Origin: Hylemonella gracilis | Lineage (GTDB): Bacteria > Pseudomonadota > Gammaproteobacteria > Burkholderiales > Burkholderiaceae_C | Assembly (NCBI RefSeq): GCF_004328645.1 | Contig: NZ_CP031395.1 | Coordinates: 1,017,501-1,081,500 of the forward strand | Direction: 5' to 3' | DNA length: 64,000 nt | Part shown: positions 27,953 to 39,627 of the stretch, one piece after another | How positions within the stretch are numbered: position 1 is the first letter of the stretch | Layout of the letters: each line of letters starts with the position of its first letter | The notes under the pieces: generated by a model | The model's input: the letters and a program-made list of their open reading frames with translations, nothing else | Database searches by the model: none | Told to the model about the DNA's origin: nothing | Position numbers and translations under genes: made by a program

Positions 27953-29581
27953 ATGAGCAAGCTGATTTCCCAACTCAACCCGCGCGCGGCATCCTTCCAG
28001 GCCAACGTCGCCGCCATGCGCGCGCTGGTGGAGGATCTGCGCGCGCAGTTCGCTCGGGTGGAACAGGGTGGAGGCGACATCGCTCGCGCCAAGCATGTCG
28101 CCCGCGGCAAGCTGTTGCCACGCGAGCGCGTGCAGCAACTGCTGGACCCGGGCTCGCCCTTTCTGGAAATCGCGCCGCTGGCCGCGCATGCGATGTACGG
28201 CGACGAGGCGCCCGGCGCGGGCCTGATCGCGGGCATCGGCCGCGTGAGTGGCGTGGACTGCATGATCGTCTGCAACGACGCCACGGTGAAGGGCGGCACC
28301 TATTACCCGATGACGGTCAAGAAGCACCTGCGCGCGCAGGAGATCGCCGAAGCCAACCGCCTGCCCTGCATCTACTTGGTGGATTCGGGCGGGGCCAACC
28401 TGCCCAACCAGGACGAGGTGTTTCCCGACCGTGACCATTTCGGGCGCATCTTCTACAACCAGGCGCAGATGTCCGCGCTGGGCATCGCCCAGGTCGCCGT
28501 GGTCATGGGCAGTTGCACGGCGGGCGGTGCCTACGTGCCGGCCATGAGTGACGAGTCCATCATCGTGCAGGGGCAAGGCACCATCTTCCTGGGCGGCCCG
28601 CCCTTGGTGAAGGCCGCCACGGGCGAGGTGGTCAGCGCCGAAGACCTGGGCGGGGGCGACGTGCACACGCGGCTGTCGGGCGTGGCCGATCACCTGGCCC
28701 GTGACGACCTGCACGCGCTGGCCCTGGCGCGGCAGGCCGTGGCGAACCTGAACGTCGCGCGCGAGGTGCCGATCGCCACTGCCGACATTCCGCCCCAGGC
28801 TCCCACCTATGCCGCCGAGGAACTGCATGGCCTCATTCCGATGGACGAAGCAGGCCGGCAAAGCCGCAAGCCCTTCGACGTGCGCGAGGTCATCGCCCGC
28901 ATCGTGGATGGCTCGGAGTTTCACGAATTCAAAGCCCGCTTCGGCGCGACCCTGGTCTGCGGCTTTGCCCACATCGAGGGCATGCCGGTGGGCATCGTGG
29001 CGAACAACGGCATCCTGTTCAGCGAGAGCGCGCAGAAAGGCGCGCACTTCATCGAACTCTGTGGTCAGCGCAAGGTGCCTTTGGTCTTTCTGCAGAACAT
29101 CACCGGTTTCATGGTCGGACGCAAGGTCGAGAACGAGGGCATCGCCCGCCATGGCGCCAAGATGGTGACGGCGGTGGCCACCGTCAATGTGCCCAAGTTC
29201 ACCGTCATCATCGGTGGCAGCTTTGGCGCGGGCAACTACGGCATGTGCGGGCGCGCCTTCTCGCCGCGTTTCCTGTGGATGTGGCCCAACGCGCGCATCG
29301 GTGTCATGGGCGGTGAACAGGCCGCCAGCGTGCTGGCGACCGTCAAGCGCGATGGCATCGAAGCCAAGGGCGGAGCGTGGAGCGCCGAGGAAGAAGCGGC
29401 CTTCAAGACCCCCATCCAGGCGCAGTACGAAGCGCAGGGGCACCCGTATTACGCGACGGCGCGTCTCTGGGACGACGGCATCATCGATCCGGCCGACACG
29501 CGACGCGTACTCGCCTTGGGCCTGGCGGCGGCGCGTCATGCGCCGGTGCCCGAGCCCAGGTTCGGCGTGTTCCGCATGTGA
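27953..29581 (+). CDS. liuB: Methylcrotonyl-CoA carboxylase, carboxyltransferase (beta) subunit
   Basis: Protein of 542 residues with two crotonase-fold carboxyltransferase halves. It transfers the carboxyl group from biotin on LiuD to 3-methylcrotonyl-CoA. Diagnostic stretches are [20 protein letters not shown], and [20 protein letters not shown] followed by [18 protein letters not shown], which match the methylcrotonyl rather than the propionyl or acetyl carboxylases. ATG at 27953, weak AAGGG upstream. It sits between liuA and liuC, and its partner biotin subunit is encoded two genes downstream. Confidence 0.95.
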
Positions 29582-29612
29582 GATGGGGCTGGCCTACGAG
29601 GAGACCACGCGC

Positions 29613-30401
29613 ATGAAAGACTTCCACACCCTGGACGTGGACCTGCAAGGCCCCGTGGCGCGGATCTGGCTGAATCAGCCCGAGACGCGCAACGCCTTCG
29701 ACGACACCCTGGTCACCGGGCTCACGCGTGCCTTCACCCTCGCGGGAGAAGCGCGCGAGGTGCGCGTCGTGGTGCTGGGCGCGCACGGCCCGGCCTTCTG
29801 CGCCGGCGCCAACCTGCGCTGGATGCAGCGCATGGCCGGCTACACGCATGAAGACAACCTGGCCGACGCGGCCCGCCTGGCCGGCATGTTGCGCACCATC
29901 GCCGAATGCCCCAAGCCCGTGATCGCCCGCGTGCAGGGTGACGCCTACGCGGGTGGCGTGGGCCTGGTCGCGGCCTGCGACATGGCCGTGAGCGCGGACC
30001 AGGCCGGCTACTGCCTGAGCGAAACGCGCATTGGCCTGGTGCCCGCGACCATCAGCCCCTATGTGATGCGCGCAATGGGTGCGCGCGCCGCGCAGCGCTA
30101 CTTCCTCACCGCCGAACGTTTTGCCGCCACCGAGGCCCATCGCATCGGCCTGGTCCACGAGGTGGTGGCCGCCGAGGCGCTGGACGCGAAAGTCAACGAA
30201 CTGACCCACGCCTTGTGCGAAGCCGGCCCTGCGGCCGTGCGGGCCTGCAAGCGACTCATCGCCGGCGTGGCCGGGCGCGAGATCGACGACGCCCTGATTG
30301 ACTGGACGGTCGAGGGCATCGCCGACATCCGCGCCAGCAGCGAAGGCCGCGAAGGCGTGCTGGCCTTCCTGGAAAAACGCAAGCCGTCCTGGCTGGGGTG
30401 A
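29613..30401 (+). CDS. liuC: Methylglutaconyl-CoA hydratase (enoyl-CoA hydratase family)
   Basis: Protein of 262 residues of the crotonase family. In this context it hydrates 3-methylglutaconyl-CoA to 3-hydroxy-3-methylglutaryl-CoA. The oxyanion-hole segments are FCAGANLRWMQRMAGYTHED and VQGDAYAGGVGLVAACD, and SETRIGLVPATISPYVMRAM follows, as in LiuC proteins. The ATG at 29613 is set by GAGGAG at 29598-29603; an in-frame ATG at 29583 would add ten residues but has no site. liuD starts 12 bases after its stop. Confidence 0.93.
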   Translation: MKDFHTLDVDLQGPVARIWLNQPETRNAFDDTLVTGLTRAFTLAGEAREVRVVVLGAHGPAFCAGANLRWMQRMAGYTHEDNLADAARLAGMLRTIAECPKPVIARVQGDAYAGGVGLVAACDMAVSADQAGYCLSETRIGLVPATISPYVMRAMGARAAQRYFLTAERFAATEAHRIGLVHEVVAAEALDAKVNELTHALCEAGPAAVRACKRLIAGVAGREIDDALIDWTVEGIADIRASSEGREGVLAFLEKRKPSWLG

Positions 30402-30413
30402 TGGAGGTACGGC

Positions 30414-32531
30414 ATGTTCAAAAAGATACTTATCGCCAACCGCGGTGAAATCACCTGCCGCGTCGCAGCCACCGCGCGGCGCCTGGGTATTCGCACGGTG
30501 GCCGTTTACTCGGACGCCGACGTGCACGCCAAGCATGTCCGTGCCTGCGACCAGGCCGTGGCTATCAGTGCCACGCCCGGCGGCAATGCGCCGCAGGACA
30601 GCTACCTGCGCATCGAGGCCATCCTGGCGGCGGCGCGCGCCACGGGGGCCGAGGCCATCCATCCCGGCTACGGTTTTCTCTCCGAGAACGAGGATTTCGC
30701 GCGCGCCTGCGCCGCGGCGGGCCTGGTCTTCATCGGCCCGCCGCCCTCGGCCATTCAGGCCATGGGCCTGAAGGCCGAGGCCAAGCGCCTGATGGAACAG
30801 GCGGGCGTGCCCCTGGTGCCGGGCTACCACGGCGCGGACCAGAGCCCCGAACTGCTGCGGCGCGAGGCCGCGGCCATCGGTTATCCCGTGCTGATCAAGG
30901 CCAGCGCGGGTGGCGGCGGCAAGGGCATGCGCGTGGTCGACCGCGCTCAGGATTTCGACGCCGCGCTTGAGGCCTGCCGACGCGAAGCTGCACGCAGCTT
31001 TGGGGACGAGGCGGTGCTGATCGAGAAATACCTGCAGCGCCCGCGCCACATCGAAATCCAGGTCTTCACCGACACCCAGGGGCAAGGTGTCTATCTGTTC
31101 GAACGCGACTGCTCCGTGCAGCGCCGGCACCAGAAGGTGCTGGAAGAAGCGCCGGCCCCGGGCCTGTCCGACACCTTGCGTCGCCAGATGGGCCGTGCGG
31201 CGCTGAGTGCGGCGCAGGCGGTCGGTTATGTGGGCGCGGGCACGGTGGAGTTCATCGTCGAACAGAACGGTCCGATGAAGTTCTACTTCATGGAGATGAA
31301 CACCCGCCTGCAGGTGGAGCACCCGGTGACCGAGGCCATCACCGGCCTGGACCTGGTGGAGTGGCAGTTGCGCGTGGCGGCCGGCCAATCCCTGCCCCTG
31401 ACGCAGGATCAGTTGCGCATCAATGGTCATGCCATCGAGGCGCGCCTCTGCGCCGAGAACCCGGACACCGGTTTCCTGCCTGCCACGGGACGCCTGGCCG
31501 TGTACCGCAAGCCGCCCGCGGCCTGCTTCACACGGGCTGACGCGACGACAGGCTTCGTGCGTGTGGACGACGGCGTGGAAGAAGGCGACGAGATCACGCC
31601 CTGGTACGACCCCATGATCGCCAAGCTCATCGTGCACGGCGCCACCCGCGAGGAAGCCTTGGCCCGGCTGGATGCGGCGCTGGCGCGGGTGCACATTGTC
31701 GGCGTGGTCAACAATGTGCAGTTCCTGCGCCACGTGCTGGCGACACCCTCCTTCGCTCAGGCCAGGTTGGACACGGGCCTGATCGAGCGCGAAAGCGCCC
31801 GGCTGTTCGGGCGCGAGCCGCTGGGCCTGCCCTTGAGGGTCGCGGCCGTGGTGGCGCGCATCCTGGCGGACGAGAGAGCTGACGCCGTGGCAATGACGGA
31901 TCGGTCAGGCGCGACGCCCTCCCCGTTCGCGCGCCGCGATGGATGGCGGGCCTGGGGTCAGGCCAAGCGGCGTTTCGATTTCGTGTTGCCGCAAGGCGTG
32001 GCCCCGGCCTCCGCCCCGGATGTGGGCGCGGCGCGCACCCTGGGTGCCGAACTGCGCTATGGGCCGGGCTTGGGTCTGGCGTGGACCCTGCGCATCGGCG
32101 CGCGGAGCGATGCGGTGGAAGGGACCTTGTCGTTCCAGGTGCTGCCCGACGGCGGGTTGGACCTGGCGTTTGCGGGCGAGCGCCAGACCGTGGCCGTGCA
32201 CGCGACCCGACCCGCGCTCGGGGGCCCCACCGGGTGGCAGGTGTTTGGCGCCGAGGGGGCGGGGAGTATCGACCTGATCGATCCGCTGACCCAGGTGGGC
32301 GGGGCGCAAGCCGAGGGTGGACGCCTGGCCGCGCCCATGCCGGGCAAGGTCGTGTCCTTCGCCGTGCAGGCGGGGGACCAAGTCCGCCAGGGCGAGGTGC
32401 TGGCCGTGATGGAAGCCATGAAGATGGAGCACGCCATCACCGCGCCCACCGATGGCCGCGTGGCGGAACTGCTCTATGCCCCCGGCGATCAGGTGGCCGA
32501 GGGCGCCGAACTACTGCGCTTGGCGGACTGA
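30414..32531 (+). CDS. liuD: Methylcrotonyl-CoA carboxylase, biotin (alpha) subunit
   Basis: Protein of 705 residues. The N-terminal biotin carboxylase domain (about 1-450) begins FKKILIANRGEITCRVAATA and holds the glycine-rich ATP loop KASAGGGGKGMRVV, FERDCSVQRRHQK and EMNTRLQVEHPVTE. A central linking domain follows. The C-terminal biotin carrier domain (about 635-705) has EAMKMEH with biotinyl-Lys670. It uses ATP and bicarbonate to carboxylate biotin for LiuB. ATG at 30414 with GGAGG at 30404-30408. It ends the contiguous liu run; the next genes are on the other strand. Confidence 0.95.
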   Translation: MFKKILIANRGEITCRVAATARRLGIRTVAVYSDADVHAKHVRACDQAVAISATPGGNAPQDSYLRIEAILAAARATGAEAIHPGYGFLSENEDFARACAAAGLVFIGPPPSAIQAMGLKAEAKRLMEQAGVPLVPGYHGADQSPELLRREAAAIGYPVLIKASAGGGGKGMRVVDRAQDFDAALEACRREAARSFGDEAVLIEKYLQRPRHIEIQVFTDTQGQGVYLFERDCSVQRRHQKVLEEAPAPGLSDTLRRQMGRAALSAAQAVGYVGAGTVEFIVEQNGPMKFYFMEMNTRLQVEHPVTEAITGLDLVEWQLRVAAGQSLPLTQDQLRINGHAIEARLCAENPDTGFLPATGRLAVYRKPPAACFTRADATTGFVRVDDGVEEGDEITPWYDPMIAKLIVHGATREEALARLDAALARVHIVGVVNNVQFLRHVLATPSFAQARLDTGLIERESARLFGREPLGLPLRVAAVVARILADERADAVAMTDRSGATPSPFARRDGWRAWGQAKRRFDFVLPQGVAPASAPDVGAARTLGAELRYGPGLGLAWTLRIGARSDAVEGTLSFQVLPDGGLDLAFAGERQTVAVHATRPALGGPTGWQVFGAEGAGSIDLIDPLTQVGGAQAEGGRLAAPMPGKVVSFAVQAGDQVRQGEVLAVMEAMKMEHAITAPTDGRVAELLYAPGDQVAEGAELLRLAD

Positions 32532-32555: not shown

Positions 32556-33518
32556 TCAATCCACCCGGATGTTCTTGGCCTTCACGATGCGGCTGTAGAT
32601 GCCCGCGTCGCGCTGGATGGCCTCGGCCATTTCCGCGCGGCTCAGGCCCAGCGGCTCGCTATTCAGTTCACGGATGCGGCGCGACAGTTCCGGGTCCCGG
32701 CTGGCTTCGACGAACACCGCGTTGATGCGGTTCACGATGGCCGCCGGCGTGGCCGAGGGCGCCCAGATACCGTGCCAGGACATCATCGACAAGCCAGGCA
32801 CCACCTCGGCCAGCGTGGGCACATTGGGCAAGGCGGCGAAACGCGTGGGGCCGGAGTAAGCCAGCGCGACGGCTTTGCCGCTGCTGATCAACGGGAAGCC
32901 GGTGGCGATGGGTTCCATCAGCGTGTCCACCTGGCCACCCACGATGTCGGCGATGGGGCTGGCGCGGTAGGGCACGTGCACCATCTGGGTCCCGGTCTCG
33001 TCCTTGAACCATTCCACGATCAGGTGCGAGGGGCTGCCGGCGCCGTAGGACGCGTGCGAGAGCGTGCCTGGCTTGGCCTTGGCGGTGGCCAGCAGTTCCT
33101 GGATGGTCTTGGCGCCGCCTTCGGGCTTGGCGATCAGCACCAGGCCCTGGCGCATGGTGGTGGCCACGGGCGTCAGATCCTTGGCGGGGTCGTAGGGCAG
33201 CTTGCTGTAGATGTAGGGATTGATCGTGAACGCGGTCGACAGGTTGTAGAGCAGGGTGTAGCCGTCGCCGGACGCCTTGGCCACCGTGTCCGTGGCCAGA
33301 TTGCCCGCGGCCCCCGGCTTGTTGTCGATGATCACGGGCTGGCCCAGTTTCTTGGACGCGTAGTCGCCGTAGAGGCGCGCGAAGATGTCGGGCGGCGTGC
33401 CCGCCGCGAAGCCCACCACGATGCGGATGGGTTTGGACGGCCAGGCCTCCTGGGCCGATGCCAGGCCGCAGGCCAGGCTGATGCAGAGGCCGATCCACCA
33501 GTGAATTCTTGAACGCAT
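32556..33518 (-). CDS. Bug-family (tripartite tricarboxylate) solute-binding protein
   Basis: Protein of 320 residues. The signal peptide MRSRIHWWIGLCISLACGLA ends at SAQ, after which the Bug signature starts: WPSKPIRIVVGFAAGTPPDI, then IDNKPGAAGNLATDTVAKA. These periplasmic receptors bind small carboxylates and work with TctAB-like permeases or as sensors; no permease is encoded in this window. ATG at 33518, with AGGAG visible on the minus strand 11 bases upstream. It is the last of five minus-strand genes, 138 bases behind the other Bug gene. It converges with liuD. Confidence 0.92.
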   Translation of the reverse strand: MRSRIHWWIGLCISLACGLASAQEAWPSKPIRIVVGFAAGTPPDIFARLYGDYASKKLGQPVIIDNKPGAAGNLATDTVAKASGDGYTLLYNLSTAFTINPYIYSKLPYDPAKDLTPVATTMRQGLVLIAKPEGGAKTIQELLATAKAKPGTLSHASYGAGSPSHLIVEWFKDETGTQMVHVPYRASPIADIVGGQVDTLMEPIATGFPLISSGKAVALAYSGPTRFAALPNVPTLAEVVPGLSMMSWHGIWAPSATPAAIVNRINAVFVEASRDPELSRRIRELNSEPLGLSRAEMAEAIQRDAGIYSRIVKAKNIRVD

Positions 33519-33656
33519 GTTTGTCTCCTGTCGCGGGTCGTGCCCGCTTCTCTGTATAGGTCTGTCGAGGTCGCGTTGGGGGGCCAAGGGGTTTTCCTGG
33601 CAGGCCGGACTCCTTTCGTCTTGGGCTGGCGGGTGTGCGGTGTGCCCTGGGCGTGC

Positions 33657-34607
33657 TCAGTTGATCTGCGCGCCCGAACGCTTGACGGCCTCGCCCCACT
33701 TGGCGATTTCGGCCGCGCCGAAGCTGGCCATGGCGCTGTCGCCCATGTCGGCCTGTTCGATGCCCTGGGCCGCCAGCTTCTCGCGCGTCTCGGGTTGGGC
33801 CAGCACCGCGCGGGTGGCCTTGCGCAGGGCATCGCGCCGCGCGGCGGCCAGGCCGGCGGGGCCGTACAGCATGAACCAGGCCACCAGGTCGAAGTCGGGC
33901 ACGCCCTGTTCCATCAGCGTGGGCACCTCAGGCGCCGCAGCGCTGCGCTTGGCGCCCGACACGCCCAGCGCGCGCAGCTTGCCCGCGCGAATGTGCGGCA
34001 GCACGGCGGCTGGGTGGTAGAACATGAACTGCACATTGCCCGCCATCAGCTCGGTCATGGCCTGGGCGCCATCGCGGTAGGGCACGTGCACGAAGTTCTT
34101 GCCCAGGCGCACATTGAGCAGTTCGCCCGCCAGGTGGCCCGAGGTGCCATTGCCCGCGGAGGCGAAGTTGATGTTGGGGTCCGTGGCACGGGCCAGATCG
34201 ACCACACTCTTCCATGGCGAGGCGGCGGGCACGACCAGCAAGGTGGGCGTGGCGCCCACGAAGCCCAGCGGCACGAAGTCGCGCAGCGGGTCATAGCTCA
34301 GGTTCTTGAACAGCGAGGCGTTGATGGCGTGCGTGCCCACCGTGCCCAGCACCAAGGTCTGACCATCGGCCGTGGCCTTGGCCACCTGGTCGGAGCCGAT
34401 GCTGCCGCCCGCGCCGGGTTTGTTTTCCACGATCACCGGCTGGCCGAGTTGCTTGCCCAGGCTGTCGGCCAGCACACGGCCGACGATGTCGGTGGTGGTG
34501 CCGGCGCCGAAGGGCACGACGATCTTCATGGCGCGTGCGCCGGGCACTTGAGCCCGCGCGGCCTGGCTGGCCAGCAGCAGGCTGGCGATCATCAGACGAC
34601 GTTTCAT
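33657..34607 (-). CDS. Bug-family solute-binding protein
   Basis: Protein of 316 residues. The signal peptide is MKRRLMIASLLLASQAARA, with cleavage before QV. The mature part shows the Bug pattern AMKIVVPFGAGTTTDIVGRV and VENKPGAGGSIGSDQVAKA. It is distinct from the second Bug protein in the same block, so the two may bind different carboxylates, or one may act as a sensor. Its ATG overlaps the stop of the citrate-synthase-fold gene in an ATGA arrangement (34604-34607), which ties it into the same operon. Confidence 0.93.
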   Translation of the reverse strand: MKRRLMIASLLLASQAARAQVPGARAMKIVVPFGAGTTTDIVGRVLADSLGKQLGQPVIVENKPGAGGSIGSDQVAKATADGQTLVLGTVGTHAINASLFKNLSYDPLRDFVPLGFVGATPTLLVVPAASPWKSVVDLARATDPNINFASAGNGTSGHLAGELLNVRLGKNFVHVPYRDGAQAMTELMAGNVQFMFYHPAAVLPHIRAGKLRALGVSGAKRSAAAPEVPTLMEQGVPDFDLVAWFMLYGPAGLAAARRDALRKATRAVLAQPETREKLAAQGIEQADMGDSAMASFGAAEIAKWGEAVKRSGAQIN

Positions 34608-35410
34608 GGTTGAGCTCCGAATCCTTGGGGGGTTTGACCTTCGTACTGCAGTTCGCGCGTGGCCTGGTAGGACAGCGCGAAGCCGCTGGGCGTTTCGGCT
34701 TCTTCGGCCAGATGCGCGATCAGCCCCGCAGTGCGCGCGAGGATGGGCACGCCGCGCAGCGACACGACCGGGAAACCCACGCCCAGCAGCACCGCGGGAA
34801 TGGCGGCCGAGACATTCATGCGCAGGTCCTTGCCCACGATAGGGGAAATAGCGCGCTCCAGCGCCTGGGCGATGCGCACGTAACGCAGATCGGCACCGGC
34901 CTCGGTGGCGACGGCGATCAGCCGGCCCACACGCGGGTCCACCGCCTTGTGCAAGGGGTGGCCGTAGCCGGGGATGGCGCGGCCCTGGGTCTTGAGTTCG
35001 CGCAGTGCGGCCTCGGCGGCTTCAGCGTCGCTGGCGCCGGCCTGCATGCGCTGTTCCACGTCGAGGAACAGGCGCCCCGCCGTCTCCGACGCGCCCAGGA
35101 TGACCGAGCCGCAACCCAGGATGCCCGCCGCCACAGCGCCCTGCAGCGCGTCCGGCGCGGCGGCGTAGGTCATGCGGCTGGCCTGAACGCTGGGCACGAA
35201 GCCGTGCTCCGCGATCGCCACCAGCGTGGCGTTGAGCACGGCGCTGGCCGCGGCATCAGGTTTTCTGCCCGTCAGCAGCAGGAAGAAGTAGTCGGCGAAG
35301 TTGAGGTGACCGATGGCGTCCTGGCACAGGTCCAGGCCGCGCACCACGATGGTGTGTTCGTCCGAGGTGCAGATGGCCGTGCGGGGCACGGTGTTCTTGC
35401 CGATTTTCAT
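34604..35410 (-). CDS. Citrate-synthase-fold lyase, citryl-CoA-lyase-like
   Basis: Protein of 268 residues, much shorter than citrate synthase (about 430) and close to the size of stand-alone citryl-CoA lyases. The loop GYGHPLHKAVDPR matches the active-site histidine loop GxGH of that superfamily. The position that carries the catalytic aspartate in citrate synthase (NVD) and in ATP-citrate lyase reads NVSAA here, so the aspartate seems replaced by serine. It probably cleaves or forms a C-C bond in a CoA thioester, but the substrate is unknown. ATG at 35410. The dioxygenase gene lies 20 bases upstream and a Bug gene overlaps its stop. Confidence 0.8.
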   Translation of the reverse strand: MKIGKNTVPRTAICTSDEHTIVVRGLDLCQDAIGHLNFADYFFLLLTGRKPDAAASAVLNATLVAIAEHGFVPSVQASRMTYAAAPDALQGAVAAGILGCGSVILGASETAGRLFLDVEQRMQAGASDAEAAEAALRELKTQGRAIPGYGHPLHKAVDPRVGRLIAVATEAGADLRYVRIAQALERAISPIVGKDLRMNVSAAIPAVLLGVGFPVVSLRGVPILARTAGLIAHLAEEAETPSGFALSYQATRELQYEGQTPQGFGAQP

Positions 35411-35430
35411 GGCGTGTGTCGCTTTCTCCG

Positions 35431-36324
35431 TTAGGCGGGCTCGAGCCGGAAGTCGTAGTGGGCCGACCAGTAGGGGGTGTCGATGGCGCGTCCATCGGGG
35501 GCCTTGCCGGCCGGGTGCGACTCGAAATCCACGACCAGGCTGGGGCGCACGCCGAACACGGCGTCCGAATCGATGTACGGGCTGTTGGCCACGAAAAGGT
35601 GGGTGGTCAGCGTGACGTGGCCGGGTGTGTAGACCTTCATGTGGATGTGGCCCGGGCGGTTCGGGTGGCGGCCCATGCCGTCCAGCATGCGGCCCACCGG
35701 GCCATCCACCGGCACGGGGTAATAGCTGGGCTTGATGGACCAGAACCAGTAGCGTCCCTGCGTGTCGGTGCGGATGCGCGCCCGCGCGGCCATGCCGGCG
35801 CCGTCGACCTGCATGTCGTAGACGCCCTCGCCATCGCCGCTCCAGATGTCCAGGGTCGCACCCGCCAGGGGTTGGCCTCGGGTGTCGGTGACACGGCCAC
35901 TGTAGAACGCGGGTTCGCCCGGTACGCCGGGGGCGATGTCCGAACCCAGCGGCAGGATGGGTGCGCCTTCCCAGTAGTAGGGGCCTTGCACCGTGGCTTC
36001 GGTGGCCGGCGTGGGGCTGTGGCCGCCGTTGCCGGCATTGCGCCTGGCGGCGCGCATCTGGTCGAGCATCACGACCATCATGGAGGCGCCCAGCGTGTCG
36101 GACAGCAGGATGAATTCCTGACGCTTGTCGGTGCAGGCCTGGCCGGTGGCGGTCAGGAACTGGATGGCGGTCATCCACTCGTCGGGGCTCAGGTCCACCT
36201 CGCGGATGAAGGCGTGCAGGTGCTGGATCAGCGAGGTCATCACCTGCTTGAAACGCGGGTCCTTCGCGTCGGACAGGCGTTGCAGCACGGCCTGCGTCAG
36301 GTCATCTTCGGTCATCGGGGTCAT
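35431..36324 (-). CDS. Intradiol ring-cleavage dioxygenase (catechol/hydroxyquinol type)
   Basis: Protein of 297 residues. An N-terminal helical dimerisation domain (about 1-105) resembles that of hydroxyquinol and catechol 1,2-dioxygenases. The catalytic domain follows, from GPYYWEGAPILPLGSDI. The four ferric ligands can be assigned to Tyr in GEGVYDMQ, Tyr in SYYPVP, and both His of HIHMKVYTPG. It should open a catechol-like ring between the hydroxyls with O2. The exact substrate is not readable; no muconate cycloisomerase or maleylacetate reductase is nearby. ATG at 36324 with AAGGAG about ten bases upstream on the minus strand; ATG at 36315 is an alternative. Confidence 0.9.
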   Translation of the reverse strand: MTPMTEDDLTQAVLQRLSDAKDPRFKQVMTSLIQHLHAFIREVDLSPDEWMTAIQFLTATGQACTDKRQEFILLSDTLGASMMVVMLDQMRAARRNAGNGGHSPTPATEATVQGPYYWEGAPILPLGSDIAPGVPGEPAFYSGRVTDTRGQPLAGATLDIWSGDGEGVYDMQVDGAGMAARARIRTDTQGRYWFWSIKPSYYPVPVDGPVGRMLDGMGRHPNRPGHIHMKVYTPGHVTLTTHLFVANSPYIDSDAVFGVRPSLVVDFESHPAGKAPDGRAIDTPYWSAHYDFRLEPA

Positions 36325-36407
36325 GTTGTCTCGTCTCCTTCGTTGTGTTTCTCACGCGATCCCTGATCGCTTCTTGCCGGGCTGGGCCGCGTAGGGTCAA
36401 GCCAGGC

Positions 36408-37559
36408 TCAAGCGCCTTGCTTCAAGCGCCGCCTGATCGGTCCGACGATGGCCTCGTCGTCCGCGCCCAGCAGGGGCGGCGCCGTAACCTGCAGGGCGCG
36501 CTCACCGTCGAAGCTCACGGGCGAGCGGATGGTCCGCCACTCGCCGCCCTCCGGATGCGGCGCGCTCACTTCCAGCTGCAGATGCCTGGCCTGCGGGTCC
36601 TGCATGGCCTCCTGGGTGTCGTACATGGGAGCGTGGGGCACGTCCTCGGTTTCAAGGCGCGTGCACCAGGCCGCGCGGTCGCGCTGGCGGAACAGGTCGC
36701 CCAGCAGCGCGATCAGTTCATCCTGGTGAGCGATGCGGCCCTCTCGATCAGCGAAACGAGGGTCCTGAAAGAGCGTGGGCCGCTCGATCGCGTTGGCCAG
36801 GCCTTGCCAGAACTTCTCGGGCGAGGACATGTGCAGCGCGATCCACTTGCCGTCGCCGCATTCGAGCACATAGGACTGCGACACGCTGGGGCGGCTGAAC
36901 GGCCCCATCACTTCGCCCTCGGAGAAGTAATGCGTGAAGGCGTCGAGGTTGAAGTGCGTCATGGCCTCCAGCATCGACACCTCGACCTTGCGGCCCTGGC
37001 CGGTGCGCCCGCGTTCCACCAGCGCGCCCAGCACGCCGTAGGCGGCATAGAAGCCCGTCAACGCGTCGGCGATCGCCGGACCGACCACGCGCGGGTTGGC
37101 CGGGTTGATCAGCAGCTTGAGGAAGGCGCTGGCCGCCTGGGCCACGGTGTCGTAGGCCGGGCGCGCGGCGGCGGGGCCGGTGGGGCCGAAGCCGCTGATG
37201 GCGCAGTAGACCAGCCGGGGGTTGAGCCCGCGCAGCCGCGCCTCGCCCGCGCCCAGTCGCTCGGCCGCGCCGGGGCGGAAGTTCTGGATGTAGACATCCG
37301 CGTCCTTGACCAGCTCGTCGAACACGGCCGCGTCCTCGGGCAGCTTGGGGTTCAGCGTGATGCTGCGCTTGTTGCGGTTGTAGGTCTGGAAGTGCGGGCT
37401 GTAGAGCCCACCGCGAAAGGCGCGGAAGGGGTCGCCCGTGCCGGGCTGCTCGATCTTGACGACCTCGGCACCCAGGTCGGCGAGGAACATGCCGGCAGCC
37501 GGCCCGGTGATGAAGGTGCCTTGTTCCAGGACCTTGATCCCGCTGAGGACTTGGTGCAT
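36408..37559 (-). CDS. CaiB/BaiF family (class III) CoA transferase
   Basis: Protein of 383 residues. It moves CoA between carboxylic acids through an aspartyl-CoA anhydride. The family start LSGIKVLEQGTFITGPAAGM and the block PGTGDPFRAFRGG are present, and a conserved ASP-containing segment lies further on. The substrate is unknown. The ATG at 37559 follows AGGAG on the minus strand. It is the first gene of the five-gene block (CoA transferase, dioxygenase, lyase, two Bug proteins) and diverges from a LysR gene across 145 bases. Confidence 0.92.
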   Translation of the reverse strand: MHQVLSGIKVLEQGTFITGPAAGMFLADLGAEVVKIEQPGTGDPFRAFRGGLYSPHFQTYNRNKRSITLNPKLPEDAAVFDELVKDADVYIQNFRPGAAERLGAGEARLRGLNPRLVYCAISGFGPTGPAAARPAYDTVAQAASAFLKLLINPANPRVVGPAIADALTGFYAAYGVLGALVERGRTGQGRKVEVSMLEAMTHFNLDAFTHYFSEGEVMGPFSRPSVSQSYVLECGDGKWIALHMSSPEKFWQGLANAIERPTLFQDPRFADREGRIAHQDELIALLGDLFRQRDRAAWCTRLETEDVPHAPMYDTQEAMQDPQARHLQLEVSAPHPEGGEWRTIRSPVSFDGERALQVTAPPLLGADDEAIVGPIRRRLKQGA

Positions 37560-37646
37560 CGACTATGTCTCCTGGTATTTTTCTTGTGCGGGCGGATGAA
37601 CGGAAATCAGGCTGAACTCTAGGTCGGGTTGATGAGTATTGAAAAT

Positions 37647-37669
37647 GATGGATATTCATGAATACCATC
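37647..37669. promoter_or_regulatory. Palindrome between CoA-transferase operon and LysR gene
   Basis: A perfect 12-base palindrome TATTCATGAATA at 37653-37664 is flanked by GATGG at 37647-37651 and CCATC at 37665-37669, giving 11-base arms with one extra A at 37652. It lies in the divergent promoter region about 35 bases before the LysR start and 90 before the CoA-transferase start. Its ATTC-N2-GAAT core (37654-37663, spacer AT) suits a LysR-type operator, which would control both directions. Confidence 0.65.
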
Positions 37670-37704
37670 GACACCATCGATGAACTGCCTGGAGATTCCC
37701 CGCC

Positions 37705-38613
37705 ATGGAGCTGCGGCATCTGCGCTATTTCAATGCGCTGGCGAGCTCGCTCAACTTCACGCGCGCCGCCGAGCGGCTGCACGTCACGCAGTCCACTCTG
37801 TCGCACCAGATCAAGCAGCTGGAGCAGGAACTGGACGTGCTGTTGTTCGACCGCGCGGCCAAGCGCGTGGTGCTGACCGAGGCGGGCGAGGCTTTTCTGC
37901 ACCATGCCACCCTGGCCCTGCAGGAGATCGATCGCGGCCTGGGGGCCTTGCGCGAGAACCCGGGTGAAGTCGAGGGCGAACTGCGCATCGGTGCGACCCA
38001 CACCTTCAACCTTGGCTTCATCCCCGACTGCATCGCGAGCTTCCAGCGGCGCTACGCCCAGACCCGCGTGATGGTGGATGAACTGGCTGCGGACGTGATC
38101 GCCCAGCGCCTGCAGCAGGGTACGCTGGACCTCGGCATCGCCTACCGGCCCACCGTGCCCGGGCCGCTGCAGTTCGAGCCGCTCTACCACGAGGAAATGG
38201 TGCTGGTGGTGGCGCAAGGCCATGCGCTGGCGCGGCGCAAGCGCGTGCGCATGGTCGAGCTGCACCGCCTGTCCATGGTGCTGCTGCCCGCCAGCTTCGC
38301 GACCCGGCAGATGCTGGACGAATGCTTCCGCTCCTGTGGTGCCGAGCCCCAGATCGTGGCCGAGATCAACACCCTGGCGCCCATCATGAGTCTGGTGGCC
38401 AAGACCCAGTTGGCCACGATCGCTGCGGCCGCCGCGGTGCCCGCGCATGCGGGCCTGTGCATCGTGCGGCTGGAAAGCCCGACGCCTGTGCGCACGCCCG
38501 GCATGCTGTGGTCTCCCGACAAAGGCGCCTCGGCACCGGCACGCGCTTTCTCGGCCATCGTGCGCAAGGTCGCGTTCCGTGCCAGCATGCGCGGGGTGGC
38601 GGAGCAGACCTAG
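37705..38613 (+). CDS. LysR-family regulator of the adjacent catabolic block
   Basis: Protein of 302 residues. The DNA-binding domain is MELRHLRYFNALASSLNFTR then AAERLHVTQSTLSHQIKQLE. The effector domain is of the CynR/CbbR-like type with LRIGATHTFNLGFIPDCIASF. The ATG at 37705 has GGAG at 37691-37694. The divergent placement against the CoA-transferase operon, with a palindrome between, makes it the likely regulator of that operon. Its coinducer is probably the substrate or an intermediate of the pathway. It is followed after 78 bases by mvaB. Confidence 0.92.
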   Translation: MELRHLRYFNALASSLNFTRAAERLHVTQSTLSHQIKQLEQELDVLLFDRAAKRVVLTEAGEAFLHHATLALQEIDRGLGALRENPGEVEGELRIGATHTFNLGFIPDCIASFQRRYAQTRVMVDELAADVIAQRLQQGTLDLGIAYRPTVPGPLQFEPLYHEEMVLVVAQGHALARRKRVRMVELHRLSMVLLPASFATRQMLDECFRSCGAEPQIVAEINTLAPIMSLVAKTQLATIAAAAAVPAHAGLCIVRLESPTPVRTPGMLWSPDKGASAPARAFSAIVRKVAFRASMRGVAEQT

Positions 38614-38691: not shown

Positions 38692-39627
38692 ATGAAACCA
38701 CTACCCCAGCGCGTCAAGCTCGTCGACGTCGGCCCACGCGATGGCCTGCAGAACGAAAAGCAGTCCGTGCCGACCGAGGTCAAGGTCGGGTTGGTGCAAC
38801 GCCTGCGGGCCGCGGGCCTGAGGCACATCGAGGTCACCAGTTTCGTCAGCCCCAAGTGGGTGCCGCAGATGGCGGACAACGCCGAGGTCATGCGGGGCCT
38901 GCACCGATCCATCGATGCCCCACGCGATGTGCGTTACGCGGTGCTGGTGCCGAACCTGCGGGGCTTGGACGCGGCCCTGGCCGCACCGCGCGAGGAATGG
39001 CCGGACGAGGTGGTGGTCTTTGGATCGGCTAGCGAGGCCTTCAGTCAGAAGAACATCAACTGCTCCATCGCCGAGAGCATCGAGCGCTTCGCGCCCGTGG
39101 TCGCGCGGGCGCTGGAGCACGGCATCGCGGTGCGCGGCGCGATGTCCTGCACGGTGGGCTGCCCTTACGAGGGTGAGGTCGCGCCCGAGCGCGTGGGCAT
39201 GCTGGCCCGGCTGATGAAGGACATCGGCGTGCAGCACGTGGGCGTGGCTGACACCATCGGCGTGGGCACGCCGCTCAAGGTGCAGCGCGTGCTCGACGCC
39301 ACGTTGCGGCACTATGGGGTGGACCAAGTGTCGGGTCACTTCCACGACACTTACGGCCAAGCCCTGTCCAACACACTCGCCAGTCTGGAGCTCGGCATCT
39401 GGCAGTTCGATGCCTCCGTGGCGGGCCTGGGTGGCTGCCCATACGCCAAGGGCGCGACCGGCAATGTGGCCACGGAAGACGTGGTGTACCTGCTGCACGG
39501 CATGGGCATCGAAACCGGCATCGACCTGGACGCGCTGATTGACGCAGGCGTCTACATCAGCGCCGCGCTGGGGCGCGAGCCGGTGTCGCGCGTGTCGAAG
39601 GCCGTGCGGGCCAAGCGCGCGGTCTGA
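38692..39627 (+). CDS. mvaB: Hydroxymethylglutaryl-CoA lyase
   Basis: Protein of 311 residues, TIM-barrel lyase of the DRE family, also called LiuE. It splits HMG-CoA into acetyl-CoA and acetoacetate, the last specific step of leucine catabolism. The N-terminal DVGPRDGLQNE holds the metal- and substrate-binding residues, and the C-terminal loop GGCPYAKGATGNVATEDVVY holds the catalytic cysteine. The ATG at 38692 (MKPLPQRVKLVDVG) is preferred to an upstream ATG at 38620. It completes the liu pathway but is separated from liuD by the 6 kb catabolic block. Confidence 0.95.
   Translation: MKPLPQRVKLVDVGPRDGLQNEKQSVPTEVKVGLVQRLRAAGLRHIEVTSFVSPKWVPQMADNAEVMRGLHRSIDAPRDVRYAVLVPNLRGLDAALAAPREEWPDEVVVFGSASEAFSQKNINCSIAESIERFAPVVARALEHGIAVRGAMSCTVGCPYEGEVAPERVGMLARLMKDIGVQHVGVADTIGVGTPLKVQRVLDATLRHYGVDQVSGHFHDTYGQALSNTLASLELGIWQFDASVAGLGGCPYAKGATGNVATEDVVYLLHGMGIETGIDLDALIDAGVYISAALGREPVSRVSKAVRAKRAV

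Follow-up and report, generated by a model that had tools for sequence, protein, structure and literature searches.

The described systems closest to the locus studied here are the hydroxyquinol/beta-ketoadipate operon, in which hydroxyquinol 1,2-dioxygenase is found with maleylacetate reductase, PcaIJ and PcaF; the citryl-coenzyme A (CoA) lyase of Hydrogenobacter thermophilus; and itaconate degradation, which consists of a CoA-transferase, a hydratase and a citramalyl-CoA lyase of the CitE-type TIM-barrel kind. Vicinal triols can give rise to one and the same product whether cleavage is intradiol or of the LigAB type. We analysed a 64,000-nt stretch of the Hylemonella gracilis genome (contig NZ_CP031395.1, positions 1,017,501 to 1,081,500; hereafter the window). 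In it, five minus-strand genes, encoding a class III CoA-transferase, an intradiol dioxygenase, a citrate-synthase-fold lyase-family enzyme (the lyase) and two Bug-type binding proteins, face a divergent LysR-type regulator gene. We consider it roughly an even bet (probability about 0.5) that this block is a LysR-controlled catabolic operon for import, ring cleavage, CoA transfer and C-C cleavage of the resulting thioester. The gene set may be a new route for aromatic breakdown. An earlier note, made from the sequence alone, had already proposed an undescribed system. This agrees with our search of openly licensed literature by titles and abstract starts, which gave no pathway with this gene set among the papers listed, a result that does not establish absence from print. 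The available portions of the Cupriavidus metallidurans genome paper (PMC2864759) and of an mlp methyltransferase preprint (PMC10418091) did not deal with the gene set.

A conserved gene set and its operator-like site

A contig scan with the window lyase recovered 221 relatives, and the best 80 of them, a selection favouring close relatives, served as contig loci. Neighbours within 8 kb of the lyase gene were labelled by tblastn to chosen reference proteins, which detects only genes resembling those references; CoA-activating genes and LysR relatives were called at at least 45% identity and the dioxygenase subtype at at least 56%. A CoA-activating gene (CoA-transferase or adenosine monophosphate (AMP)-forming ligase) was found in 79 of the 80 loci, a LysR relative in 77, Bug genes in 62 and the window-type dioxygenase in 53. 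A pBB2 monooxygenase reference taken in a wrong frame contributed to none of the counts. By these comparisons the block is a real conserved operon, and its constant core consists of the LysR gene, the CoA-activating gene and the citrate-synthase-fold lyase gene.

The lyase and the dioxygenase subtype were also sought in 200 genomes of the window's family, its own genome included. A close lyase (at least 60% identity) occurred in 15 genomes and the dioxygenase subtype in 15 (at least 59% identity, a threshold picked after a gap had been seen, the next value being 54%). Both were present in 14, one genome having the lyase only and one the dioxygenase only (Fisher p = 2e-19, uncorrected for relatedness, as are all Fisher tests here). 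Other hydroxyquinol-type dioxygenases (45-54% identity), found in 48 of the 200 genomes, showed no link to the lyase (present in 5 of the 48; p = 0.28). Because the family sample and the contig set overlap, some genomes are counted twice among the 94 lyase rows, 68 dioxygenase rows, 90 intergenic regions and 21 MetE-like rows used here; family-sample regions were left out of the 80-locus residue counts and of the 81-region operator count, which includes the window.

The LysR gene faces the operon across a conserved two-part site that resembles an operator. Element A (ATCGATGnCATCGAT, up to 3 mismatches) was found in 78 of 81 LysR-operon intergenic regions, against a mean of 0.38 in shuffled sequences, and element B (AAATTCATCATTT, up to 3 mismatches) in 72 of 81, against 1.72. 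Where both matched within 4 mismatches (79 of the 81 regions), their starts lay 26 bp apart in 74. The window's own elements each differ from the consensus at 2 positions. The operon opens with the CoA-transferase gene in 38 of 90 regions, with the dioxygenase gene in 31 and with the lyase gene in 16, the remaining 5 having some other gene first; this indicates that the site travels with LysR and not with one gene order. LysR control, as previously suggested, is thus backed by a divergent regulator gene together with a predicted operator.

A palindrome that had been noticed in the shared promoter does exist, and we examined it as a candidate operator. The exact 10-base core of TATTCATGAATA occurred in none of 90 other intergenic regions, so this form was rejected; matches within 2 mismatches occurred in 29 of the 90, above the shuffled mean of 4.3, probably because the palindrome overlaps conserved element B. 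A strict operator pattern had 0 matches in the whole genome, and, being stricter than the window's own site, it is uninformative on other targets.

Open frames and Pfam/NCBIfam matches returned the six genes in the order and on the strands given in the earlier note (Table 1). In the direction of transcription, the minus-strand genes are separated by 83 bp, 20 bp, a 4-bp overlap and 138 bp. We placed the bugA start at the ATG at 33518, which is preceded by a GGAGACA motif; the longest open frame opens at TTG 33587. The nearest NCBIfam model of the LysR protein was CynR (258.6 bits, below its cut-off of 277). No TctA/TctB membrane parts occur among the block's six genes, the rest of the window and genome not having been searched for them. 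Window queries lacked the first residue in the contig scan, plasmid scan, PDB alignments and genome intradiol search, and the bugA query lacked its first 6 residues in the NCBIfam and Pfam profile searches.

Table 1. Features of the block and of its intergenic region (positions within the window).
Feature	Position	Strand	Description
Class III (CaiB/BaiF) CoA-transferase	36408..37559	-	383 aa; first gene of operon; PF02515, E = 4e-105
Hydroxyquinol-type intradiol dioxygenase, Gln113 subclade	35431..36324	-	297 aa; PF00775 and PF04444
Citrate-synthase-fold lyase-family enzyme	34604..35410	-	268 aa; NF004868 'citryl-CoA lyase', 332 bits (cut-off 193)
bugB, Bug/TctC-type periplasmic binding protein	33657..34607	-	PF03401, E = 1e-64; 4-bp overlap with lyase gene
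bugA, second Bug/TctC-type binding protein	32556..33518	-	PF03401, E = 4e-64
Divergent LysR-type regulator	37705..38613	+	302 aa; PF00126 and PF03466
Predicted operator element A	37667..37681	-	ATCGATGGTGTCGAT, read towards CoA-transferase; consensus ATCGATGnCATCGAT
Predicted operator element B	37643..37655	-	ATATCCATCATTT, start 26 bp from element A start; consensus AAATTCATCATTT
Palindrome TATTCATGAATA	37653..37664	.	noted earlier from the sequence; overlaps element B

The dioxygenase, the CoA-transferase and the lyase

The best PDB match of the dioxygenase was hydroxyquinol 1,2-dioxygenase 1tmx (273 bits), whereas catechol 1,2-dioxygenases scored at most 127 bits. 1tmx was also the best fold match of its structure model (mean predicted local distance difference test score (pLDDT) 82.9). 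Y169, Y202, H226 and H228, which correspond to the two Tyr and two His iron ligands of 1tmx, and the pocket residue Asp76 were kept in 68 of 68 aligned clade rows. Position 113, the Phe of the TVFGPF motif, which presumably lines the pocket, is Gln in the window enzyme; the 68 rows comprise 52 with Gln, 12 with Glu and 4 with Leu at this position (Gln 41, Glu 10 and Leu 2 in the 53 clade rows of the contig set alone). The usual Phe is present in 1tmx, 3n9t, 8r2x and the other copy of the window genome. Two further residues, Trp118 (67 of 68 rows) and Gly225 (68 of 68), set the subclade apart from the three hydroxyquinol enzymes used for comparison. By sequence, the dioxygenase is of hydroxyquinol type and not of catechol type. 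PDB and NCBIfam scores ruled out a catechol or protocatechuate dioxygenase, and these two compounds are unlikely substrates. The earlier expectation of a catechol- or hydroxyquinol-like substrate is supported in its hydroxyquinol-like part and not in its catechol-like part.

The window genome encodes a second intradiol enzyme with the usual Phe, 47% identical to the window enzyme. Its gene stands in a run with maleylacetate reductase, PcaI, PcaJ, PcaF and a PcaR-type regulator at 211-217 kb. Since the genome has this separate and complete hydroxyquinol operon, the window copy probably has another role: it is probably a paralogue with a different substrate, plain hydroxyquinol being already served. 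At the level of sequence comparison, the operon is a second branch beside the genome's textbook hydroxyquinol operon. The hydroxyquinol/beta-ketoadipate run (G000:C1:203921-217436; locus L174) also carries a TRAP transporter, a Bug gene and a nitroreductase gene. A similar dioxygenase-TRAP-nitroreductase set directly adjoins the window-type cluster in two Hydrogenophaga loci (L099, L128).

The nearest PDB chains of the CoA-transferase were formyl-CoA transferase and succinate-hydroxymethylglutarate CoA-transferase. Its Asp165 aligns with the Asp of these chains that we take to be catalytic in class III CoA-transferases. An AMP-forming ligase beside the lyase replaces the CoA-transferase in locus L117 and in two Cupriavidus plasmid loci, a substitution that fits the predicted CoA activation of an intermediate.

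The lyase model (mean pLDDT 85.8) had citryl-CoA lyase 6hxp as its best fold match (TM-score 0.77/0.81). H69, H151, R160 and R226 are kept, and both Arg align with those of 6hxp. The active site is altered: the residue aligned with the 6hxp Asp that we assume to be catalytic is Ser201, and Ser occupies this position in all 80 contig loci and all 34 aligned lyase rows, relatives down to 43% identity included. Six lyase paralogues below 60% identity have Thr (4), Val (1) and Asp (1) there. Judging by their titles, some PDB entries are ATP-citrate lyases with an Asp-to-Ala change, bound to citryl-CoA or substrates; the mutated Asp would correspond to position 201. Because of Ser201, the name 'citryl-CoA lyase' is not justified for this protein, and the earlier assumption that it simply splits an acyl-CoA is unsupported in that form. 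Its fold and its constant CoA-activating partner make it likely that the protein acts on a CoA ester.

Variation around the core and the readings compared

The ring-opening gene varied among the loci. Besides the 53 contig loci with the window-type dioxygenase, 2 had solely another intradiol enzyme and 6 had a glyoxalase-fold protein, one of these 6 also with another intradiol enzyme. Remote intradiol types were also found near the core. On plasmids of Aminobacter, Sinorhizobium, Neorhizobium and Martelella, LigAB-type genes take the place of the intradiol enzyme gene near the core; the best PDB match of the Aminobacter protein was gallate dioxygenase (78 bits). A product common to the two kinds of cleavage of vicinal triols would explain such swapping. 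In 8 more distant loci from a phylum sample (44-60% lyase identity), the neighbour was a glyoxalase-fold protein in 6, a LigB type in 1 and none in 1. No dioxygenase role could be demonstrated for the glyoxalase-fold neighbours, whose best PDB match was an unspecified glyoxalase. Seven Bordetella loci (L080-L086) contain a four-gene unit of LysR, CoA-transferase, lyase and Bug, and no intradiol dioxygenase was found in these genomes at E <= 1e-30.

Other genes also recurred near the core. LeuC and LeuD, presumably a hydratase or isomerase of substituted malates, were near it in 3 of the 80 contig loci and on Burkholderia glumae and Caballeronia plasmids. Relatives of nitroreductases or flavin mononucleotide (FMN) reductases (at least 33% identity) occurred in 14 of 80, and we assume that such flavin reductase relatives could reduce quinones. 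ABC or TRAP transporters were recurrent as well. For plasmids, 15 of 40 matched records were looked at, 6 of them without usable annotation. On the B. glumae plasmid (L145:8101-15630), dioxygenase, lyase, aromatic hydroxylase, CoA-transferase, LeuC, LeuD and TIM-barrel genes form one run, perhaps a fuller version of the pathway; this plasmid was typed as mobilizable and has insertion sequences near the run. Cupriavidus necator plasmid pBB2 (L148:14254-18759) has an annotated unit of CoA-transferase, 3-hydroxy-3-methylglutaryl-CoA (HMG-CoA)-lyase-like gene, LeuC, LeuD and Bug, and part of such a unit was seen by similarity in C. metallidurans (L164). Both adjoin a citryl-CoA lyase relative, an AMP ligase and an intradiol-type dioxygenase, and the unit would be a parallel hydratase-CoA-lyase module.

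In the reading to which we give even odds, the Bug proteins would help to import an aromatic or carboxylic acid, and the hydroxyquinol-type dioxygenase would open a trihydroxylated ring, which is probably that of a compound other than plain hydroxyquinol. The ring-fission acid, a maleylacetate-like or citrate-like carboxylate, would then be converted to its CoA thioester by the class III CoA-transferase. Cleavage of the thioester by the citrate-synthase-fold enzyme would most likely release acetyl-CoA together with a smaller acid of the keto or dicarboxylic kind. The presence of unrelated ring-opening types near the same core, and of an operator common to the loci whichever gene comes first, argues for this scheme, as do the family-sample co-occurrence, the separate hydroxyquinol operon, the altered dioxygenase pocket and the flavin reductase relatives.

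Several observations weigh against it. No recognised ring-opening gene lay within 8 kb in 19 of the 80 contig loci. Among 24 genomes without the window-type dioxygenase at the locus, 13 had no intradiol dioxygenase at E <= 1e-30; one of the other 11 (G622, locus L127) carries a copy of 65% identity at another site in its genome. A hidden gallate-type extradiol dioxygenase was considered for genomes without the window-type enzyme at the locus and set aside, as it turned up in 1 of 17 with a weak match (30% identity). Our reading of the nitroreductase as a quinone reductase may be wrong: the genome's own copy, 65% identical to one reference protein, matches the malonic semialdehyde reductase model, the nearest named family. 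The invariant Ser in place of the aligned Asp also means that C-C cleavage may not be the role of the lyase-fold protein. Given the 13 of 24 genomes, the core is separable and probably can act without the window-type dioxygenase too. The earlier treatment of the dioxygenase as essential to the set found no support in the 19 loci and the seven Bordetella genomes.

It is unlikely, in our view, that the Bug-LysR-CoA-transferase-lyase core serves to utilise an imported citrate- or citramalate-like acid, the dioxygenase being an accessory through which some species obtain that acid from an aromatic compound. The four-gene units of the seven Bordetella genomes agree with this proposal, as do the LeuC/LeuD neighbours, the pBB2 unit and the two conserved lyase arginines (R160 and R226); against it, ring-opening genes of several unrelated families turn up repeatedly near the core, and across the family sample the lyase and the dioxygenase subtype almost always occur together.

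Another alternative is a variant hydroxyquinol/beta-ketoadipate route, in which a reductase, often encoded elsewhere, reduces maleylacetate, while 3-oxoadipate is handled by the CoA-transferase and the lyase-fold protein instead of PcaIJ and PcaF. Six of the 80 contig loci have a maleylacetate reductase gene no more than 8 kb from the lyase gene. One such linked reductase scored 485 bits against PDB entry 3jzd and about 355 bits against the maleylacetate reductases 3hl0 and 3w5s. At E <= 1e-50, a reductase was encoded by 12 of the 15 lyase-bearing family genomes and by 14 of 21 further lyase-bearing ones, compared with 2 of 14 chosen family genomes without a close lyase. Among 26 distinct genomes with both dioxygenase and module, 20, the window's own included, had a reductase and 6 had none at this threshold (G078, G183, G198 and the genomes of loci L056, L063 and L077, that of L063 being metagenome-assembled and perhaps incomplete). 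The reductase is thus not a fixed partner. The six genomes make a reductase-free route plausible, so that the bypass of maleylacetate reductase proposed earlier stands in part; the other 20 genomes and the linked genes give it no support where a reductase is present. We judge the variant route quite unlikely: besides the six genomes without a reductase, the complete operon elsewhere in the window genome already supplies PcaIJ and PcaF, and the dioxygenase pocket is unlike that of hydroxyquinol enzymes.

It is also conceivable that the citrate-synthase-fold protein breaks no C-C bond and instead hydrates, isomerises or hydrolyses the CoA ester, cleavage occurring elsewhere. The uniform Ser201 and, if that correspondence is right, the Asp-to-Ala ATP-citrate lyase complexes point in this direction. 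The retention of H69, H151, R160 and R226 does not, and no other C-C cleaving enzyme recurs in the gene maps, in which only genes like the reference proteins are visible; we regard this version as improbable.

Finally, a chance neighbourhood of unrelated genes is hardly credible: the window block does sit inside leucine-degradation genes, but the gene set and its operator recur across many genera with differing flanks. By family matches, these flanking genes are mccB, liuC and mccA on one side and mvaB on the other. The cluster interrupts a leucine-degradation run (27953-32531 and 38692-39627) of carboxylase subunits, enoyl-CoA hydratase and HMG-CoA lyase. In six Variovorax and Xylophilus loci mvaB adjoins the cluster, and two of these have carboxylase genes on the opposite side. 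A functional tie to leucine degradation was considered and is unsupported, since just 6 of the 80 contig loci have mvaB.

A MetE-like neighbour and comparison with described systems

The catabolic reading may extend to methylated substrates. A MetE-like protein (at least 60% identity) was found in 15 of the 80 contig loci. It is encoded at L102:15747-16778 (343 aa), in 14 further contig loci and in Aminobacter (L147:8971-9996), often beside the cluster's transporter genes. NCBIfam names it 'methionine synthase' and the Aminobacter record 'uroporphyrinogen decarboxylase family'. HxC and a Cys, which we take to be the zinc-site pattern of methionine synthase, were kept in 20 to 21 of 21 MetE-like rows. 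At E <= 1e-90 the family sample contains 7 genomes with a match, every one of which also carries the lyase; the match in G130 is only 55% identical, and in G199 the frame includes a stop codon and is located on a different contig from the cluster. No MetE-like match at this threshold was present in the window genome. The neighbour suggests that some substrates carry a methyl group that would be removed from the aromatic compound.

The broadest form of this idea is a long shot. The module would act as a general lower route for rings with three vicinal hydroxyl groups, among them methoxylated rings (syringyl-type lignin, 2,6-dimethoxyquinone). The MetE-like zinc methyltransferase, linked in many relatives and not in the window, would demethylate without cobalamin. 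Any one of several unrelated dioxygenases would lead to the same acid, and the Asp-less citrate-synthase-fold enzyme would split the CoA ester into acetyl-CoA and an oxaloacetate-like acid.

If the catabolic reading is correct, opened aromatic rings would have another finish, in which a CoA ester and a citrate-synthase-fold enzyme replace the reductase and thiolase steps of the described hydroxyquinol route. A protein subfamily labelled only 'citryl-CoA lyase' would gain a function, and the question would arise how such an enzyme works when the usual acidic residue is missing. Direct handles on the substrate are offered by the operator sequence and by the transporters linked to the cluster.

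Compared with hydroxyquinol 1,2-dioxygenase, the window dioxygenase shares the family, the fold, the ligand-type residues and Asp76, and differs in Gln113, Trp118 and Gly225. The window block lacks the maleylacetate reductase, PcaIJ and PcaF of the hydroxyquinol/beta-ketoadipate operon and has the class III CoA-transferase and the citrate-synthase-fold enzyme instead. Gallate dioxygenase DesB and protocatechuate 4,5-dioxygenase LigAB, which we assume are not homologous to the window dioxygenase, have relatives near the same core elsewhere and none in the window block. The citryl-CoA lyase of H. thermophilus (6hxp) has the same fold, length and His and Arg positions as the window lyase at about 32% identity; it has Asp where the window protein has Ser, and the window protein adjoins a CoA-transferase and ring-opening enzymes. 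With itaconate degradation the proposed pathway would share a common logic, CoA transfer to a dicarboxylate followed by cleavage of the acyl-CoA, and would differ from it in beginning with ring cleavage.

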